Shown here one piece after another: positions 42,997-51,651 of a DNA stretch of 64,000 bases (the first letter of the stretch is position 1; every line of letters begins with the position of its first letter). A model generated the notes under the pieces. That model searched no databases. It was not told the origin of the DNA and worked only from the letters and a program-made list of their open reading frames with translations. Made by a program: the position numbers and the translations under genes. The stretch lies in NCBI RefSeq assembly GCF_900116005.1, contig NZ_FOYI01000002.1, positions 434,001-498,000 of the forward strand, written 5' to 3'. The stretch is from Poseidonocella sedimentorum. Lineage in GTDB: Bacteria > Pseudomonadota > Alphaproteobacteria > Rhodobacterales > Rhodobacteraceae.

Positions 42997-43737
42997 ATGA
43001 GAGTTTTGAACTCTGCTATTGGGGCAATGGCTTTTGCGATGACCTTTGCCGCCGCCGCCGAGGCCTCGACGATTACGCCAGACATCATCTGGGGCAGCGG
43101 CAACGTCAACCGGGGCTTCACCGTCGAAACCACCGGCAGCCTCGAGCTCGGTATCCGCGCCAAGCAGCGGTTTCCGGCAAGCGATGCGATCGGCGTCGGG
43201 ATCGTTCAGGATGTCGCCGGAAACTATCTTTTCGACTCGTCGACCTCGACCGCACCCGCAGGCCGGGCGATGTGGTCCTTTGACTGGTCCGTCAACACCA
43301 ATGTCGATGGCGTTGGCGGCAACCTCAACATGTTCACCTACCTGATCGAGTTCGACACCGACGCGACGGTCAACGAAAACTACTCGATCGCCTATGATCC
43401 GTTCTCGAATTTCTTCTCGGGCTACTACCTGGGCACCAACGCCACGACCAATGGCGAGGAAGACGGAAACGAATACAATATCCTGTCGCCCGGCGACCTC
43501 GCGCTCCACAACGTGGCCCAGAACTCGGTTCAGCCGCAATGGATTGGCGGGCCGACCGGCTCGGGTCAGTTCGGTGTCCGCCTGTCGGCCTTTGACGGCG
43601 GTGTGTTGGTCGGATCGGTCGAGATTCAGGCGATCGTCGACGATCCCGCGCCGATCCCGCTGCCTGCGGCGATGCCGCTTCTGCTCGCGGGCATCGGGGG
43701 GCTGGGCGCGTTCGCGCGGCGCCGGCGCAAGAGCTGA
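42997..43737 (+). CDS. VPLPA-CTERM exported protein 2
   Basis: 246 residues; the ATG at 42997 has AGGGGAG at 42984-42990. A signal peptide covers about 1-24 (cleavage near EAS). The mature part is Gly/Asn/Ser-rich and beta-like. The tail has IPLPA at 220-224, a hydrophobic run and RRRRKS, a VPLPA-CTERM signal with Ile at the first position. The gene lies between fabA and fabB but on the other strand, with its own promoter-like region and terminator, and is best seen as an insertion there. Confidence 0.85.
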   Translation: MRVLNSAIGAMAFAMTFAAAAEASTITPDIIWGSGNVNRGFTVETTGSLELGIRAKQRFPASDAIGVGIVQDVAGNYLFDSSTSTAPAGRAMWSFDWSVNTNVDGVGGNLNMFTYLIEFDTDATVNENYSIAYDPFSNFFSGYYLGTNATTNGEEDGNEYNILSPGDLALHNVAQNSVQPQWIGGPTGSGQFGVRLSAFDGGVLVGSVEIQAIVDDPAPIPLPAAMPLLLAGIGGLGAFARRRRKS

Positions 43738-45045: not shown

Positions 45046-45648
45046 TCAGGCGAGGTTGAGCGAGCGCGCGATGGCGGCGGCGTGGGTCCGGTTGCGGGCG
45101 GCGAGTTTGCGGCTCAGCGTGCGCACGTGCAGCTTGACGGTCACCTCCTGAATGAGCAGCTCCCGGGCGATTTCCTTGTTCGACTGCCCCGCGCAGATGC
45201 CGCGCAGGACCTCGTGCTCGCGCTTGCTGAGGTTGACGGTGTGCGCCTCCTCCTCGCGGTTCATGAACTCGAACGGCACGAAGACATCCCCGCCGATCAT
45301 GATCTGTGCCGCGCCATAGATGGACTTGGAGGGCAGCGTCTTGGGGACGAACCCCGCCGCCCCGGCCTCGACCGCATCCTTGGCGACCGCGGGCGCCGCC
45401 GTGCCGGAAATCAGCGCCACCGGCTGGCCCTCGTTGTGATCGATCATCTGGCGCAAGCCGGCCAGCCCGCTCATCCCGGGCATGTTGTAGTCCAGCAGAA
45501 CCAGATCAAAGGGCCCATCCGTCCGCACCAGATGCATCGCCTCCTCGAGGTTCTTGGCGGCGAAAACCTCCTTGGCCCCTTCGGCGAGCAAAAGCGCGGC
45601 GATAGCGTCTCGGACAAGGTTGTGATCGTCGGCGATCAGAAGTCGCAT
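45046..45648 (-). CDS. LuxR/NarL-type response regulator
   Basis: 200 residues: a receiver domain (1-120) with DD at 7-8, phospho-acceptor Asp53 and Lys103, and a LuxR-type helix-turn-helix (about 137-198, SKREHEVLRGICAGQSNKEIA). ATG at 45648 starts exactly at the receiver (MRLLIADDHN); a longer frame to 45789 is unlikely. It is divergent from the SUOX-fold/hybrid-kinase pair and should be the output of that phosphorelay. The 260-base gap holds a candidate operator. Confidence 0.9.
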   Translation of the reverse strand: MRLLIADDHNLVRDAIAALLLAEGAKEVFAAKNLEEAMHLVRTDGPFDLVLLDYNMPGMSGLAGLRQMIDHNEGQPVALISGTAAPAVAKDAVEAGAAGFVPKTLPSKSIYGAAQIMIGGDVFVPFEFMNREEEAHTVNLSKREHEVLRGICAGQSNKEIARELLIQEVTVKLHVRTLSRKLAARNRTHAAAIARSLNLA

Positions 45649-45794
45649 GGGCAGCCCTTGGACAGTGGTGTTGCACGTTGGTAGCCGTTGCCGCGACGAT
45701 TGCGAAGTGGGCGCAGAAAAAAAGGGCACAATCCCGCCGGTTTGGTAAATTTTACGCGCCCCGAGGTCGCGCGCGCGCCCAAATAGCACGCCGG

Positions 45795-45824
45795 ACCTAT
45801 CCGAAAGGTTAGGTGCCTATCCGA
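45795..45824. promoter_or_regulatory. Candidate operator between the response regulator and sensor genes
   Basis: ACCTATCC (45795-45802) and GGTTAGGT (45807-45814) form an inverted repeat with one mismatch around GAAA. CCTATCCGA occurs twice, at 45796-45804 and 45816-45824, 20 bases apart. The site is central in the divergent gap and could be bound by the LuxR-type regulator to control both directions. Confidence 0.45.
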
Positions 45825-45908
45825 TTGCGCCGGTGACCGGCCGCGCCCAACCATGCAACAATTTTTCATGTTCTTTGTTTTAGTCCGCCGATACCGGAGC
45901 CCGATTTG

Positions 45909-46433
45909 ATGACCAGAGTAGCGCAGTTTCTTTCCATTTGCGTCTTTCTGGTGTCGGGCCTCGCGGCGGGAGCCGAGCAGCACGACGCGACACTCGATCA
46001 GCCGCAAGGTGAGGTGATCCTCACCATCTCCGGCCAGATCGCGCGAACCAACGGCGAGGGGGTCGCCCGGTTCGATGCCGCCATGCTCCGGTCACTGGGA
46101 CAGGAAACGGTGAAGACAAGCACGCTCTGGACAGAGGGCGTGCAGGAATTCACCGGCACACCGCTTGCGGCCATCATGGAGGCCGTCGGGGTGCAGGACG
46201 GAAAGATCGTAGCCACGGCGATCAACGCATACTCGGTCGAAATACCACTCACGGATGCGATCGAGGGGGGGGCTCTTGTTGCGTATGAACGCGAAGGGGA
46301 AGCGATGAATATACGCGACAAGGGCCCCCTTTGGGTCATATACCCCTATGACGACAACCCCACCTATCAGAGCGCTGTGGCCTATGCCCGCAGTATCTGG
46401 CAGCTGGAAAAAATGGAGATTGTTCCCGATTGA
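45909..46433 (+). CDS. Periplasmic SUOX/molybdopterin-fold protein, PruR-like, lacking the molybdenum cysteine
   Basis: 174 residues from ATG 45909 (GGAG at 45896-45899; a TTG at 45906 is also possible). A signal peptide covers about 1-22 with cleavage near AGA. The mature part follows the sulfite-oxidase molybdopterin-binding pattern: FTGTPLAAIMEAVGV, PLWVIYPYDD and a terminal SAVAYARSIWQLEKMEIV-type ending. Its only Cys (Cys11) is in the signal peptide, so the Mo-ligating Cys is absent and it is not a standard Mo enzyme. This matches PruR, a periplasmic pterin-binding regulator in Agrobacterium. TTGA overlap couples it to the kinase. Confidence 0.8.
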   Translation: MTRVAQFLSICVFLVSGLAAGAEQHDATLDQPQGEVILTISGQIARTNGEGVARFDAAMLRSLGQETVKTSTLWTEGVQEFTGTPLAAIMEAVGVQDGKIVATAINAYSVEIPLTDAIEGGALVAYEREGEAMNIRDKGPLWVIYPYDDNPTYQSAVAYARSIWQLEKMEIVPD

Positions 46434-49057
46434 GGCGCAGCCGCCTTCGCGAGATCCTGAACGGCCTTGAGGTTCCTGGACGGCTCAAGGCGCTCACGGC
46501 CACCCGGTCCGGTGGTGTGCTGCTGCTCGGGACCGTGCTGCTCCTTGTGATCGGGATCACCCTGCTGAGCACCCACGCCCGCAACCAGATCGACAACCTC
46601 ACCGCCGCCAACTCCGGCGCGCGACAGTGGTCCATGGCCCAGGCGGAGGTGGAGTTTCTCAACTACCAGACCGCGCTGCTCACCGGGATCAGTGACGAGA
46701 CGCCTGACCTGCGCGCCCTGCGCCGCGCCTTCGACGTCTTCTACAACCGCATCGCCATCATCGCGAGCGGCCGGACCTTCGAGCTGTTGCACGAAGATCC
46801 CCGCAGCGCCCGCGACATCGCGAACATCGAGCGCTTCATCGCGCGGACCATGCCTCTGATCGACGGGCCCGACGCGGCGCTGCGGGCCGCGCTCCCCGAG
46901 ATGCTGGTCGAGGCGCGCGCGATCCGGCCCAGCGTGCGCGAGCTGACGGTGCGCAGCATGACGCTTTATGCGCGCTCCTATGACAACGGCCGCGCCCGGA
47001 TGGCGGGCAACCTGTCGCAGATCGCGCTGCTGACCGGTGCGCTCGTGGCGCTGCTTATGGCGGGGCTTCTCGCGCTCACGGCGCTCTCCCGCGTCGCGCA
47101 AATCCAGGCGCGCGAAATCACCCAGGCGAGCGCGCGGATCACCGCGATCGTCAAGACCTCCCTCGATCCGATCATCGTGGTGGGCCCCGACGGCCGGATC
47201 CTTGAATTCAACGACAGCGCCGAGGAAACCTTCGGCTATTCGCGCGACGAGGCCACGGGCGCAAACCTGCTTTCGCTGCTGGTCCCGCCCCACCTGCGCG
47301 AGGAATACGCCGCCGGGATCAAACGCTTCCTCCGCGAGGGGGGCGAAGATCTGACCGACAATGGCCGCATCCGCATCGAGGGGATGCGCCGCGACGGCAG
47401 CCATTTCCCGGTCGAGGTCTCGCTCACCTCGTCGCAAACGGCAGACGGCCAGATCCTCATCACCTATGTGCGCGATATTTCGGCACGCGTTGCCGCCGAG
47501 CGAGAGCTGATGCAGGCCCGCGACCGCGCCGTCGCCGGGGAGCAGACCAAGGCGAACCTCCTCGCCGTCATGAGCCACGAGATGCGCACCCCGCTCAACG
47601 GGCTTCTGGGGACGCTCGATCTGTTGCAACGCACCGCGCTCGACCCGCTGCAGGAAGACTACGTCCGGATCATGACCCGCTCGGGCGGCAGCCTGCTGCA
47701 CCATGTCAACGACGTGCTCGATGTGCTCAAGATCGACAGTGAACGGCCCGAAATCGAAAGCGCGCTGTTCGACCCGGTCCCCCTGATCGCTGATGTGGTC
47801 GAGGAGCAGGAAGAGACCGCCCGCGCCCGCGGCAACACCATCCGGCAGGACCTCCCCGATGCGGGCACGCTCAGCGTCGTCGGCGACGAGATGCGCTTCC
47901 GCCAGGTGCTCCAGAACCTGCTGAGCAACGCCATCAAGTTCACCCGCAATGGCGAGATCGCGCTGGGCACGGATTTCGACCCGCACCGCGCGGAAATCAC
48001 CGTCACGGTGACCGACACCGGCGCAGGGATCGACAGCGAGAACATCTCGCGCATTTTCGACGATTTCGTGACGCTCGATCCTGCCTATAATCGGATCAAC
48101 GAAGGCACCGGGCTCGGGCTCGGCATCGCCCGGCGGCTGGTCGAGGCGATGAACGGCTCGCTCGGGGTCGAGAGCGAGCCGGGCGAAGGGTCGGTCTTCT
48201 GGTTCCGGCTGCCGGCGCTGGCGCAGGTCACGAACGAAGAGGTCGAGGGGAGCGAGGGCGCCGACACCCGGCTCGATGCGGCGCCGACCCCGCTCGATGT
48301 GCTGGTGGTGGAGGACAACGAGATCAACCGTTTTGTGGTGCGCGAGATGCTCAAGCGGCTGGGCCATCGGGTCACCGAGGCCAAGAACGGCCACGAGGGC
48401 ATCGCCTGGACCAAGGCGCGGCGGTTTGACCTCATCCTGATGGACATCAGCATGCCGGTGATCGACGGGGTGGAGGCGACGCGCCACATCCGTCAGGGCG
48501 GCGGGCCAAACGCGCACCAGCCGATCATCGCGCTCACTGCCCATGCGATGCCCGAAGATTTCGACCGGTTCCGCGAGGCGGGTGTGAGCGAGACCGTGAC
48601 CAAACCCATCGATCTCGGGGCGCTCTCCGCCCTTCTGGGGCGCATCCCGCAGGGCGGCGCGGGGGAGCGCGACTGGCCGCGGGAGGATCCGCGCGCGCTG
48701 CTCGATCTTGAGGTGCTCGAAGATCTGCGCCGCGCGCTGGGCGAGGCCAATTTCACCCGGATGCAGTCTCAGTTCCTGCGCGAAACCGAAGACGCGCTGG
48801 AGGCGGTGCAAGGCTCGGCGGAGGGGACCACGGCGCAGGATTACGCCAGCGAAGTCCACCGGATCGCCGGCTCCACGGCGATATTCGGCGCGCGCCGGTT
48901 GCGCGAGCTTCTTATCGAGCATCGCCAACTGGTCCTCGATGGCGGGCTGGACGCGGCTTGTGACCAATGGCTCGAAATCTGGGCGGTCTGGAAGGACACC
49001 CGCGCCGGGCTGACGCAGGAAGCGCCCGCCGTCCCTGTCCGCATCAGCGCCTCATGA
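46430..49057 (+). CDS. Hybrid sensor histidine kinase (PAS-HisKA-HATPase-REC-Hpt)
   Basis: 875 residues, TTG start overlapping the previous stop. Two membrane helices (about 29-47 and 198-220) flank a helical periplasmic domain of about 150 residues. Then a PAS domain (about 238-352), HisKA with His383 (MSHEMRTPLN), ATPase boxes N (NLLSNAIKF), G1 (DTGAGI) and G2 (GTGLGLGIA), a receiver with Asp672 and Lys725, and an Hpt domain with His810 (EVHRIAGSTAIFG). All catalytic residues are present. The periplasmic domain is the likely docking site for the SUOX-fold protein; the divergent LuxR-type regulator is the likely target. Confidence 0.93.
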   Translation: MRRSRLREILNGLEVPGRLKALTATRSGGVLLLGTVLLLVIGITLLSTHARNQIDNLTAANSGARQWSMAQAEVEFLNYQTALLTGISDETPDLRALRRAFDVFYNRIAIIASGRTFELLHEDPRSARDIANIERFIARTMPLIDGPDAALRAALPEMLVEARAIRPSVRELTVRSMTLYARSYDNGRARMAGNLSQIALLTGALVALLMAGLLALTALSRVAQIQAREITQASARITAIVKTSLDPIIVVGPDGRILEFNDSAEETFGYSRDEATGANLLSLLVPPHLREEYAAGIKRFLREGGEDLTDNGRIRIEGMRRDGSHFPVEVSLTSSQTADGQILITYVRDISARVAAERELMQARDRAVAGEQTKANLLAVMSHEMRTPLNGLLGTLDLLQRTALDPLQEDYVRIMTRSGGSLLHHVNDVLDVLKIDSERPEIESALFDPVPLIADVVEEQEETARARGNTIRQDLPDAGTLSVVGDEMRFRQVLQNLLSNAIKFTRNGEIALGTDFDPHRAEITVTVTDTGAGIDSENISRIFDDFVTLDPAYNRINEGTGLGLGIARRLVEAMNGSLGVESEPGEGSVFWFRLPALAQVTNEEVEGSEGADTRLDAAPTPLDVLVVEDNEINRFVVREMLKRLGHRVTEAKNGHEGIAWTKARRFDLILMDISMPVIDGVEATRHIRQGGGPNAHQPIIALTAHAMPEDFDRFREAGVSETVTKPIDLGALSALLGRIPQGGAGERDWPREDPRALLDLEVLEDLRRALGEANFTRMQSQFLRETEDALEAVQGSAEGTTAQDYASEVHRIAGSTAIFGARRLRELLIEHRQLVLDGGLDAACDQWLEIWAVWKDTRAGLTQEAPAVPVRISAS

Positions 49058-49173
49058 TGGACGCGGGTCACGCCGCGCCTATAGCCTGAACCTATGGCCC
49101 GACACGGCAATTCGATTTGCCCCCGGCACCCCACCCATGAGACACAGACCCGGGCGCGACAAGGAGGGTGACG

Positions 49174-49908
49174 ATGTCAGCCAATACAACGGCTCTCGTG
49201 ATTTCAGCGCATTCGGCGGATTTCGTCTGGCGCTGCGGCGGGGCGATTGCATTGCATCAGGAGCGGGGCATCGACGTGACGGTCGTCTGTCTCAGCTATG
49301 GCGAGCGGGGCGAGAGCGCCAAGCTCTGGAAGCAGGAGGGCATGTCGCTCGCTGCCGTCAAGGCGGCCCGCCGGGATGAGGCCGAGAACGCCGCCGCCGC
49401 GCTCGGGGTCTCCGACATCCAGTTCTTCGACGTGGGCGACTACCCGCTCGATCTGGGTCGCGAGACGCAGGATCGCATGGTCGATGTGATCCGCAAGGTA
49501 CAGCCTCAGTTTATGCTGACCCATTCCCAGTGGGACCCCTACAACACCGACCATATGAACACGATGCGCTTCGCCCTCGACTGCCGGATGATCGCCCAGG
49601 CCTGGGGCCATAACCCGGGCGAGAAGGTCCTCGGCGCGCCGCAGCTTTACCTCTTCGAGCCGCATCAGACCGAGCAGATGCAGTGGAAGCCCGACACTTT
49701 TCTCGACATCACCCCCGTCTGGGACAAGAAGCGCGCGGCCATCGAGTGCATGCAGGGCCAGGAACACCTCTGGGACTACTACACCAACGTGGCTCAAAAC
49801 CGCGGGAACCATTTCCGCCGCAATTCCGGCGGCCAGTCGGGCGGGCGCGATTGCCGCTATGCCGAAGGGTTCCAGTCCGTCTTTCCCCGCACCGTGGATC
49901 AGCTCTGA
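49174..49908 (+). CDS. galB: 4-oxalomesaconate hydratase, GalB type (PIG-L family)
   Basis: 244 residues, ATG at 49174 with AAGGAGG at 49161-49167. PIG-L fold metal ligands: His13 and Asp16 (AHSADF) and His127 (NTDHMNT). GalB of Pseudomonas putida is a PIG-L-type hydratase that replaces LigJ in gallate degradation. The call depends on context: ligK and galD follow immediately, and 49906-49910 overlaps stop and start. A deacetylase is the alternative if seen alone. Confidence 0.83.
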
Positions 49909-50582
49909 TGGGCGGCGTGGTCAGGACCAAACTCGCGCGCGCGGATGCCGATGTCATCGCCGGGCTCGCGGAATGCGGTGTCGCGACGGTGCATGAGGCG
50001 CAGGGGCGCAAGGGGCTCATGGCGGGCTACATGCGGCCGATCTACGGCGGGGTCTCCGTCGCGGGATCGGCGGTGACGATCAGCGCGCCGCCGGGTGACA
50101 ACTGGATGATCCACGTGGCCATCGAACAGGTCGCCGAGGGCGATATCCTCGTCATGGCGCCCACGAGCCCCTGCGACGACGGCTATTTCGGCGATCTGCT
50201 CGCCACCTCCGCCATGGCGCGCGGCGCGAAGGGCATGGTGATCGAAGCGGGCTGCCGCGACATCCGCGACCTGACCGAGATGGGCTTTCCCGTCTGGTCC
50301 AAGGCGATCTTCGCCCAAGGCACAGTCAAGGAGACGGTCGGCTCGGTCAACATCCCCATCGTCTGCGCCGGGGCTGCGGTCGAGGCGGGCGACGTGATCG
50401 TGGCCGATGATGACGGGGTCTGCGTGGTGAAACGGGCCGAGGCGGCGGATGTGCTGGAAAAGGCGCGGGCGCGGATGGCCAACGAGGAAGACAAGCGGAA
50501 GCGCTTGGCCTCGGGCGAGCTCGGGCTCGACATGTATGGTTTCCGCGAGCGGCTGGCCGAGAAGGGCCTCACGTATGAGTGA
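49908..50582 (+). CDS. ligK: 4-carboxy-4-hydroxy-2-oxoadipate aldolase/oxaloacetate decarboxylase
   Basis: 224 residues of the RraA-like class II aldolase family. Key residues: GDLLA at 95-99 and Arg117-Asp118 (EAGCRDIRD), equivalent to the catalytic pair of LigK/HMG aldolase. It cleaves CHA to pyruvate and oxaloacetate, the last step of protocatechuate 4,5-cleavage. It overlaps galB by 1 base and galD by 8 bases (50575-50582). Confidence 0.87.
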
Positions 50583-51651
50583 CGGTATCCGCGCCATGTG
50601 GATGCGCGGCGGGACATCGAAGGGCGGCTACTTCCTCGCCTCCGATCTCCCCGCCGACCCTGTGGCGCGGGATCGCGCTCTGCTCGGGGTGATGGGCTCG
50701 CCCGATCCGCGTCAGATCGACGGGATGGGCGGCGCCGATCCGCTGACGTCAAAGGTCGCCGTCGTGCGGCCCTCGGCGCGGGCGGGCGTCGATGTCGACT
50801 ACCTCTTCCTGCAGGTCTTCGTGGATCGCCCCGTGGTCTCGGATGCCCAGAATTGCGGCAACATCCTCGCCGGGGTCGGCCCGTTTGCCATCGAGCGCGG
50901 GCTCGTTCCGGCGCGGGAGGGTGAGACCCCGGTCACGATCTTCATGGAGAACACCGGCCAGATTGCCACCGCCCGGGTCCAGACGCCGGGCGGCGCGGTC
51001 TCTTATGCGGGGGCCGCGCGGATCGACGGGGTGCCGGGCGCGAGCGCGCCGGTGCCGATCGAGTTTCGCGACACGGCGGGCGCCTCCTGCGGCGCGCTTT
51101 TGCCGAGCGGCAATGTGGTCGATGTGATCGACGGGGTGGAGGCGACGCTGATCGACAACGGCATGCCTTGCGTGATCCTGCGGGCGGCGGATCTCGGGAT
51201 CAGCGGCGCGGAAATCCCCGCCGAGCTGGAGGCCGATCAGGGCCTCAAGGCGCGGCTCGAAGCGATCCGGCTCAAGGCTGGCCCGATGATGAACCTCGGC
51301 GACGTGGCCCAGAAATCCGTGCCCAAGATGACCATGCTCAGCGCCCCCCGCGCGGGCGGCGCGATCTCGACCCGGACCTTCATCCCCCACCGCTGCCATA
51401 AGACCATCGGCGTGCTTGGCGCCGTCTCGGTCGCGACGGCTTGCCTGACCGAAGGCGCGGTCGGCCATGAACTCGCCGCGCTGCCCGGCGGCGCGACGCA
51501 GGCGCTCAGCATCGAGCACCCGACCGGCGAGATGACCGTCGTGGGGCATCTGGAGGATGGAGTCGTGGCGCGGGCCGAAGTGCTGCGCACGGCGCGCAAG
51601 CTCATGGACGGGCTGGTGTTTCCCGCCGCGTCCGACGACCACAACGATTGA
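50575..51651 (+). CDS. galD: 4-oxalomesaconate tautomerase
   Basis: 358 residues of the PrpF/diaminopimelate-epimerase-like fold. [11 protein letters not shown] at the N-terminus, NCGNILAGV and [19 protein letters not shown] are family features. In gallate degradation GalD interconverts keto and enol forms of oxalomesaconate before hydration by GalB. Adjacent galB and ligK support this over a PrpF-type aconitate isomerase role. Confidence 0.85.

Follow-up and report, generated by a model that had tools for sequence, protein, structure and literature searches.

In the portion of a 2026 review covered here (PMC13259868), pairs of PruR and a sensor kinase are named PruR-DTB systems, with a WX7E motif in the kinase and a Ruegeria example, and a 2024 paper is cited for the pairing. 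According to the same portion, the physiological output of the PruR-DcpA system of Agrobacterium tumefaciens is surface polysaccharide (PMC13259868). Agrobacterium PruR (PDB entry 7kos) is a periplasmic protein of the sulfite oxidase (SUOX) fold that lacks the molybdenum (Mo) ligand and acts via the periplasmic domain of its membrane partner, which synthesizes and degrades cyclic di-GMP (c-di-GMP). Systems of the TorT-TorS type combine a separate periplasmic binding protein with a hybrid kinase whose periplasmic domain is helical. Here we analyze a 64,000-nucleotide stretch of Poseidonocella sedimentorum DNA (contig NZ_FOYI01000002.1, positions 434,001 to 498,000), referred to below as the window, in which a pruR-like gene is followed by a hybrid histidine kinase gene and is divergent from a gene for a LuxR-type response regulator. 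Taking the mechanism as a whole, we find it fairly probable that these genes form a PruR-DTB system with a complete phosphorelay to the transcription of exopolysaccharide (EPS) genes.

The window agrees with the reviewed description of PruR-DTB systems in having pruR directly upstream of the kinase gene, in a predicted two-gene operon, and in the makeup of the kinase, with its DcpA-like periplasmic domain, WX7E motif, and PAS, HisKA, HATPase, and receiver domains; unlike the systems as described there, the window kinase has a C-terminal Hpt domain and is accompanied by a divergent LuxR-type regulator and a conserved predicted operator (PMC13259868, same portion). With PruR-DcpA, the window shares a periplasmic SUOX-fold protein without Mo ligand that would act via the periplasmic domain of a membrane partner, as well as the proposed polysaccharide output. 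However, the signal would pass here through a phosphorelay to a transcription factor and not through c-di-GMP synthesis and degradation. As in TorT-TorS, a separate periplasmic protein would address a helical kinase domain, and the window kinase core is nearest to TorS (TIGR02956, the best NCBIfam match, E = 9e-103, under the equivalog cutoff), as expected of PruR-DTB kinases, the cores of which are closest to TorS/BaeS, whereas the binding protein has the SUOX fold instead of being TorT-type and the partner regulator is LuxR-type. The initial annotation had described this three-gene layout correctly, including its coordinates. The kinase gene starts at a TTG that overlaps the pruR stop codon, an overlap that appears to fit the two-gene operon layout of PruR-DTB systems, and the regulator gene is divergent from both.

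The PruR-like protein has 175 residues counted from the TTG at which its open reading frame (ORF) is listed to begin, one codon before the ATG at position 45909, and 174 amino acids from that ATG, close to the length of about 170 typical of PruR proteins; residues are numbered here from the TTG. Its sole cysteine is residue 12, within a hydrophobic N-terminus that, on visual inspection, looks like a signal peptide, in line with the signal peptide and Cys-free mature part noted previously. Four sequence matches were found in the PDB (E values: 7kos, 5.5e-38; 7rkb, 9.9e-32; 7kp2, 1.2e-19; and 7kom, 9.7e-15), all of which were deposited as pterin-binding or Oxidored_molyb-domain proteins and all of which are named PruR in the fold search. 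The AlphaFold model has a mean predicted local distance difference test (pLDDT) score of 94.6, and its mature part matches 7kos with a TM score of 0.95, a root mean square deviation of 1.0, and 45% identity. The best sulfite dehydrogenase ranks eighth in the same search (TM score 0.76, 14% identity), and all the sulfite oxidases listed rank below the PruR structures. In these sequence and fold searches, the window protein is closer to solved PruR proteins than to catalytic SUOX enzymes.

Relatives were compared in a set of 161 loci made up of 80 loci from an even sample of the family, 80 named loci, and the window, which was reduced to 154 after 7 identical PruR cores were dropped. The family sample covers 80 of the 113 PruR places outside the genome of P. 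sedimentorum itself (omitting the 25 weakest and 8 of the best 88), and the named loci are the best 80 of at least 590 confirmed candidates and are not an even sample. Neighboring genes were called mechanically, from stop to stop with a third-position GC (GC3) rule. In the alignment of the 154 proteins, the column of the Mo-ligating cysteine holds Trp in 145, Phe in 4, Val in 3, Tyr in 2, and Cys in none; Trp75 occupies it in the window protein, the mature part of which offers no Mo-ligating residue. The pocket residues Asn107, Tyr109, and Trp165 are kept in 152, 151, and 154 of the 154 proteins, respectively, and were assigned in the present alignment to the columns of the published Agrobacterium residues Asn102, Tyr104, and Trp160. 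By its sequence and modeled fold, the small protein is PruR, and by homology with Agrobacterium PruR-DcpA its ligand would be a pterin.

The kinase is ordered as a transmembrane segment, a periplasmic helical domain, a second transmembrane segment, and PAS, HisKA, HATPase, receiver, and Hpt domains, the last five being assigned by Pfam. The phosphorelay residues are those named in the initial annotation, namely, His383 in HisKA, Asp672 in the receiver, and His810 in Hpt. The WX7E motif of the window kinase reads WSMAQAEVE, starting at W67, and in the kinase alignment, 116 of 144 sequences keep both of its defining residues. The periplasmic domain was modeled as helical; a fold search with it returned nothing at E ≤ 0.001, the best match being the periplasmic sensor domain of a kinase (4k0d, E = 0.033), and it is called DcpA-like on the basis of the WX7E motif. 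Contact between PruR and this domain would follow from homology with Agrobacterium PruR-DcpA.

Features of the module and its predicted operator in the window
Feature	Position	Strand	Basis
LuxR/NarL-type response regulator, receiver and GerE helix-turn-helix (HTH), Asp53	45046..45648	-	Pfam Response_reg 2.6e-22, GerE 4.1e-18
Predicted 20-bp palindromic operator ACCTATCCGAAAGGTTAGGT, between regulator gene and pruR	45795..45814	.	Matrix from other loci: 22.3
Weak partial copy adjoining the operator, single good half-site CCTATCC	45815..45834	.	Score 7.2
pruR-like gene, SUOX-fold, without Mo ligand	45909..46433	+	Oxidored_molyb 2.3e-7, 7kos match, model, pocket residues
PruR-DTB-type hybrid histidine kinase	46430..49057	+	Pfam, residue positions, WX7E, helical model

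A kinase of the same family was found in 144 of the 154 distinct PruR loci and a regulator of the same family in 114, so the three-gene arrangement is not due to chance, and the co-occurrence with the kinase on which the initial annotation depended is borne out; the regulator gene runs opposite to pruR in 110 of 115 cases. The presence of the regulator follows that of the Hpt domain. For this count, 139 of the 144 kinase loci were used, namely, those with 3.5 kb or more of upstream sequence (the five shorter ones were left out). In them, Hpt-bearing kinases had the regulator in 112 loci and lacked it in 10, and kinases without Hpt had it in 1 locus and lacked it in 16. This covariation fits the need of a His-Asp-His-Asp relay, in which Hpt is the donor to an outside regulator. 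Across 111 loci, with species relatedness uncontrolled, the divergence of the regulator tracks that of the kinase (pairwise r = 0.74 to 0.75), and the divergence of PruR tracks that of the periplasmic domain (r = 0.71) more than that of the kinase core (r = 0.59). The regulator belongs to the PruR-kinase module.

At the level of the class, 43 of 240 genomes contain PruR (E ≤ 1e-12). Among 29 class-wide loci taken with up to 1.5 kb on each side, 27 have the periplasmic domain, whereas this regulator family with its HTH domain is present in 2, one of which has a site scoring at least 12 with the motif described below. The form with Hpt and regulator thus looks mostly restricted to a branch of the Rhodobacterales and near kin. 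A GGDEF motif, as expected of a DcpA-type partner, was seen in none of the 29 loci, the stretches of which extend only about 1.5 kb beyond pruR and may miss such a partner.

The arrangement varies in several directions among the relatives. In four loci (L103, L105, L108, and L111), a PruR kinase without Hpt is followed downstream by a gene for a receiver-HTH protein, which amounts to a second output wiring. The kinase is absent from 10 of the 154 PruR loci (L062, L066, L068, L115, L116, L120, L124, L130, L160, and L048). In nine of these, all but L048, the gene directly downstream of pruR belongs to one family, the scanned member of which is the protein adenylyltransferase SelO; HTH-cupin, aminotransferase, and zinc dehydrogenase genes come next in several of them, and the PruR proteins of six such loci, all from the named set, are 51 to 59% identical to that of the window. 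PruR-like genes were also found in 623 plasmid records, of which 390 are from plasmids typed as conjugative and many are from Enterobacterales. On a Raoultella IncFIB plasmid (L312:3962-6135), the PruR-like gene adjoins a hybrid kinase gene beside transfer genes, and on an Agrobacterium plasmid (L311:2734-6624), a divergent LuxR-type regulator, a PruR-like gene, an ATP-binding protein that is kinase-like by its place, and an HD phosphohydrolase stand in a row, a similar layout outside the Rhodobacterales.

The consensus ACCTATCC-N4-GGATAGGT recurs upstream of most of the regulator genes. Expectation maximization, applied from independent starts to 113 upstream regions of at most 280 bp (two of the 115 regulator genes dropped out, one because no upstream region had been extracted and the other because its region was not long enough), recovered the palindrome aCCTATCC-N4-GGATAGgt. 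A score of at least 10 was reached by 89 of the 113 regions, the same that served for training, versus 23 of 2,260 mononucleotide shuffles. The window copy scores 22.0, or 22.3 with a matrix from which the window was held out, and the next best place in the 64-kb window scores 7.4. Sites scoring at least 12 were present anywhere in the locus in 101 of 114 regulator-positive loci and in 13 of 40 regulator-negative loci, and the regulators nearest to that of the window, from Rhodobacter capsulatus (61% identity), have sites scoring 24.5 and 25.8.

The regulator family also occurs away from PruR, and 13 of 20 such loci that were fetched contain a site scoring at least 12. The letters of the recognition helix vary little between regulators with and without an upstream site, and the DNA specificity is therefore probably shared across the family, with the placement of sites differing. 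Three loci (L261, L270, and L275) combine EPS genes, sites, and a kinase without an adjacent PruR. To judge from these sequences, the regulator and its operator look like an EPS switch for which PruR-DTB is a common, not an exclusive, sensor. The kinases of two of these EPS clusters (L270, 10402-13224, and L275, 1326-4124) have a periplasmic domain of the PruR-binding type; PruR may act there in trans or may have been lost.

Some loci of the module sit inside EPS clusters, as judged by Pfam and NCBIfam scans of one representative per neighbor family. Their neighbors include a WecG/TagA-glycosylphosphotransferase fusion, GalU, a chain-length-determinant-like protein, a Wza-like exporter, a flippase, a family 2 glycosyltransferase (GT2), and a pyruvyl transferase. 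In the family sample, 14 of 52 regulator-positive loci are flanked by EPS genes, compared with none of the 28 regulator-negative ones; in the named set, the corresponding counts are 26 of 61 and 1 of 12. On a Sulfitobacter faviae plasmid, for example, an EPS cluster with four predicted operators (25.6, 22.8, 18.0, and 15.3) is ordered as O-antigen ligase, hypothetical protein, regulator, WecB/TagA, GalU, nucleotidyltransferase-fold protein, PruR, and kinase, followed past the kinase by an export protein, a flippase, and glycosyltransferases.

The matrix was retrained on 65 regions from loci without EPS genes, the window excluded, and applied at a cutoff of 12 to the 48 EPS-flanked loci. Sites were found before 30 of 33 genes for Wzz-like chain-length proteins, 26 of 32 for Wza-like exporters, 6 of 6 for pyruvyl transferases, 6 of 10 of the neighbor family f9, and 39 of 43 pruR genes. 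Flippase genes had sites in 22 of 27 cases, largely at the same divergent promoter. Sites were rare before GT2 genes (1 of 43), family f8 (2 of 22), GalU (1 of 12), kinase genes (3 of 49), and other genes (9 of 134), and in regulator-negative loci they preceded 4 of 409 genes. The regulator probably switches EPS genes via this conserved DNA site, as far as site placement can tell.

Sites were also counted over 148 genomes of the family with at most one mismatch and compared with a reversed-pattern control, a genome being taken as regulator-positive at a best E value of 2.4e-40 or lower. The counts versus the control were 98 versus 14 in the 61 genomes with both regulator and PruR, 4 versus 0 in the 3 with the regulator alone, 7 versus 4 in the 23 with PruR alone, and 11 versus 17 in the 61 with neither. 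The counts are clearly above the control only where the regulator is present. The co-occurrence of PruR and regulator in these four groups (61, 3, 23, and 61 genomes) gives a Fisher P value of 1.8e-18, which is not corrected for descent. Thirty loci with such sites were scanned with neighbor-family profiles; seven of these lie at the module or the regulator, and others stand beside a Wza/Wzx pair (L254) and a GT2 (L253). Pfam scans of genes flanking some of the remaining sites further identified a GT1 (L231) and a mannose-1-phosphate guanylyltransferase (L241).

In the genome of P. sedimentorum itself, six places match with at most two mismatches, and the window copy has the fewest mismatches (one), as it does when up to three are allowed. 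Of the 101 pattern places per strand, 15 were scored with the matrix. The window copy (22.0) is followed by position 8362 of contig C20 (21.2) and position 269077 of contig C8 (15.8), or 22.3, 21.5, and 17.6, respectively, with the held-out matrix. On contig C20, which is separate from that of the window, lies an EPS cluster that spans about 28 kb of this 3.56-Mb genome, with genes for a WecG-type transferase, glycosyltransferases, a pyruvyl transferase, a UDP-sugar dehydrogenase, an exosortase, a sugar transferase, and a ParA-like ATPase; a Wzy_C match falls just under the cutoff, and the Wzx and Wza matches are weak. The site lies 31 bp from a reverse ORF of 240 amino acids without a Pfam match and 224 bp from the forward WecG gene and could act on either of the two. 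The copy on C8 (269077-269094) stands about 160 bp upstream of a gene for a BCCT betaine/carnitine/choline transporter and is a possible second target or a chance match.

The mechanism that we propose builds on the computed family membership, gene linkage, Hpt-regulator covariation, motif, EPS placement, and regulator dependence of the sites; its ligand, PruR-kinase contact, phosphotransfer, DNA binding, and sign would follow those of the PruR, two-component, and LuxR-type regulator families. A pterin, probably a reduced one such as tetrahydromonapterin, would bind the periplasmic PruR-like protein, and the loaded PruR would contact the helical periplasmic domain of the kinase in the WX7E region and shift its balance between kinase and phosphatase. 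Phosphate would then pass from His383 to Asp672, to His810, and to Asp53 of the divergent regulator. A dimer of the regulator would bind the palindrome between its own gene and pruR, as feedback, and also the copies at EPS synthesis and export operons, and EPS, hence surface attachment, would be controlled by transcription. The positions of the sites would suit an activator, which is a weak indication of the sign. The interpretation given in the initial annotation is supported in substance, and none of the three outcomes that it named as refuting was observed.

Several observations weigh against this scheme. Ten loci with an Hpt-bearing kinase have no regulator in the fetched stretch; one of these (L045) is a clustering miss, the regulator being there, and in another (L110) the Hpt domain sits on a neighboring second hybrid kinase. 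The 13 regulator-negative loci that keep a site are a further difficulty, some of them being at contig ends or Hpt-bearing. EPS genes flank a minority of the regulator-positive loci in both sets, and the window is not among them. Within EPS loci, the held-out matrix passes only 18 of 32 WecG-type fusions and 28 of 47 regulator genes. Of the 20 regulators fetched away from PruR, just 4 have a site directly upstream, and 7 of these loci contain no site scoring at least 12; several of the regulators concerned resemble that of the window (56 to 57%) as closely as do regulators with sites. The C20 site may serve either of its two flanking genes. The lack of a clear FolM match in the genome and the unusual Ala between the pocket Asn and Tyr, both taken up below, also count against the scheme. 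Several sites in trans adjoin non-EPS genes (PhoX, a GST-like gene, and ScfR) and some adjoin nothing recognized; a pattern that allows one mismatch is loose enough for chance matches. The occurrence of the regulator family beside kinases without an adjacent PruR means, in addition, that the regulator does not serve pterin input alone.

The alternatives concern the ligand, the reach of the regulator, the identity of the DNA-binding protein, and the nature of the small protein. The sensor and the relay could be as proposed, with EPS as the output, and PruR could respond to a small ligand other than a tetrahydropterin, which we regard as unlikely. Between the pocket Asn and Tyr, the window protein has Ala, the sole case among the 154 proteins, 141 of which have Asp. 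The codons for Asn-Ala-Tyr occupy positions 46224-46232, and the replacement of this near-invariant residue is a possible change of ligand preference. A search of the genome with Escherichia coli FolM as the query gave no clear pteridine reductase, the matches being generic-looking short-chain dehydrogenases/reductases (best, 28% identity, E = 2e-14), and the in vivo ligand is described as unsettled even in Agrobacterium in the portion of the review covered (PMC13259868). However, the three pocket residues are kept in the window, the fold match to PruR is close, and a Klebsiella PruR structure contains neopterin according to its entry title. The same portion of the review states that the PruA/FolM pteridine reductase is not universal among genomes with the PruR family and that Vibrio cholerae has PruR pairs without PruA (PMC13259868).

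A pterin-responsive relay could also have a narrower reach in P. sedimentorum, with the regulator acting only on the region of its own gene and pruR and the C20 site being due to chance; we consider this doubtful, to about the same degree as another ligand. The module has irr/fabA on one side and ring-cleavage genes on the other and is not part of an EPS cluster; among the scored places of the genome, just one other exceeds 20. That one place, however, scores nearly as high as the window copy with a matrix trained on neither EPS-flanked loci nor the window, and it falls inside a cluster of about 28 kb in a genome of 3.56 Mb.

It is less probable still that the palindrome is bound by another EPS regulator and that the LuxR-type regulator is merely a linked gene. 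The DNA binding of this regulator is itself predicted from sequence, and among the 20 loci of regulators lying away from PruR, the site is missing directly upstream in 16. Against such a linked-gene role, the motif precedes the regulator in most PruR loci, and the counts beat the control in regulator-positive genomes, including the three without PruR, and not in those with neither. Finally, a catalytic SUOX enzyme (YedY/MsrP or SorT type) beside an unrelated kinase, as the Pfam Oxidored_molyb match might suggest, is ruled out with near certainty by the lack of the Mo-ligating Cys in all 154 relatives, by the PruR structures being nearer than any SUOX enzyme listed, and by the retention of the kinase in 144 of the 154 loci.

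The genes next to the module encode, on one side, an Irr-type Fur protein and FabA and, on the other, a PIG-L protein, CHA aldolase, and 4-oxalomesaconate tautomerase. The last three are consecutive (49168-51651), begin just 110 bp past the kinase gene, and presumably are part of a protocatechuate 4,5-cleavage/gallate route. A functional link of the module to irr, fabA, or the ring-cleavage neighbors was rejected, as the 45 most widespread neighbor families listed for the relatives include no window copy of these genes. A sigma-70 promoter scan of positions 45600-46000 found none, and the scan was uninformative. Positions 42997-43737 (+ strand) encode a secreted-looking protein with a proline-rich, hydrophobic, Arg-rich tail that we take to resemble exosortase sorting signals; an exosortase-like protein is encoded in the EPS cluster on C20, at C20:16128-17762.

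PruR-DTB pairs are already in print, and the sensor half of the window system is thus known in kind, contrary to the initial annotation, which had called such a periplasmic-pterin phosphorelay little described (PMC13259868, in the portion covered). The output half, consisting of the regulator, the operator, and the EPS genes, is an addition. It was not met in the literature searched, the scope of which did not include the primary 2024 description of PruR-DTB systems; in the covered text of the review (PMC13259868), the terms "luxr," "response regulator," and "exopolysaccharide" occur 0 times each. In that text, the PruR-DTB systems are named from genomes and no output is given, and a partner regulator, a probable operator, and probable targets turn the predicted sensor into a testable system.

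For the Rhodobacterales, we lean somewhat towards the reading that a periplasmic pterin signal reaches the transcription of a polysaccharide regulon without c-di-GMP and that the sensor feeding a shared EPS switch can be exchanged. The targets of the palindrome would then be pruR, the regulator gene, and the genes for Wzz, Wza, flippase, and initiating transferase, and the regulator family would be common to EPS clusters whose kinases have no adjacent PruR, a picture to which we give the same guarded preference. If this is true, pterin sensing would reach surface polysaccharide in two ways, through c-di-GMP in Agrobacterium and through a phosphorelay in the Rhodobacterales.

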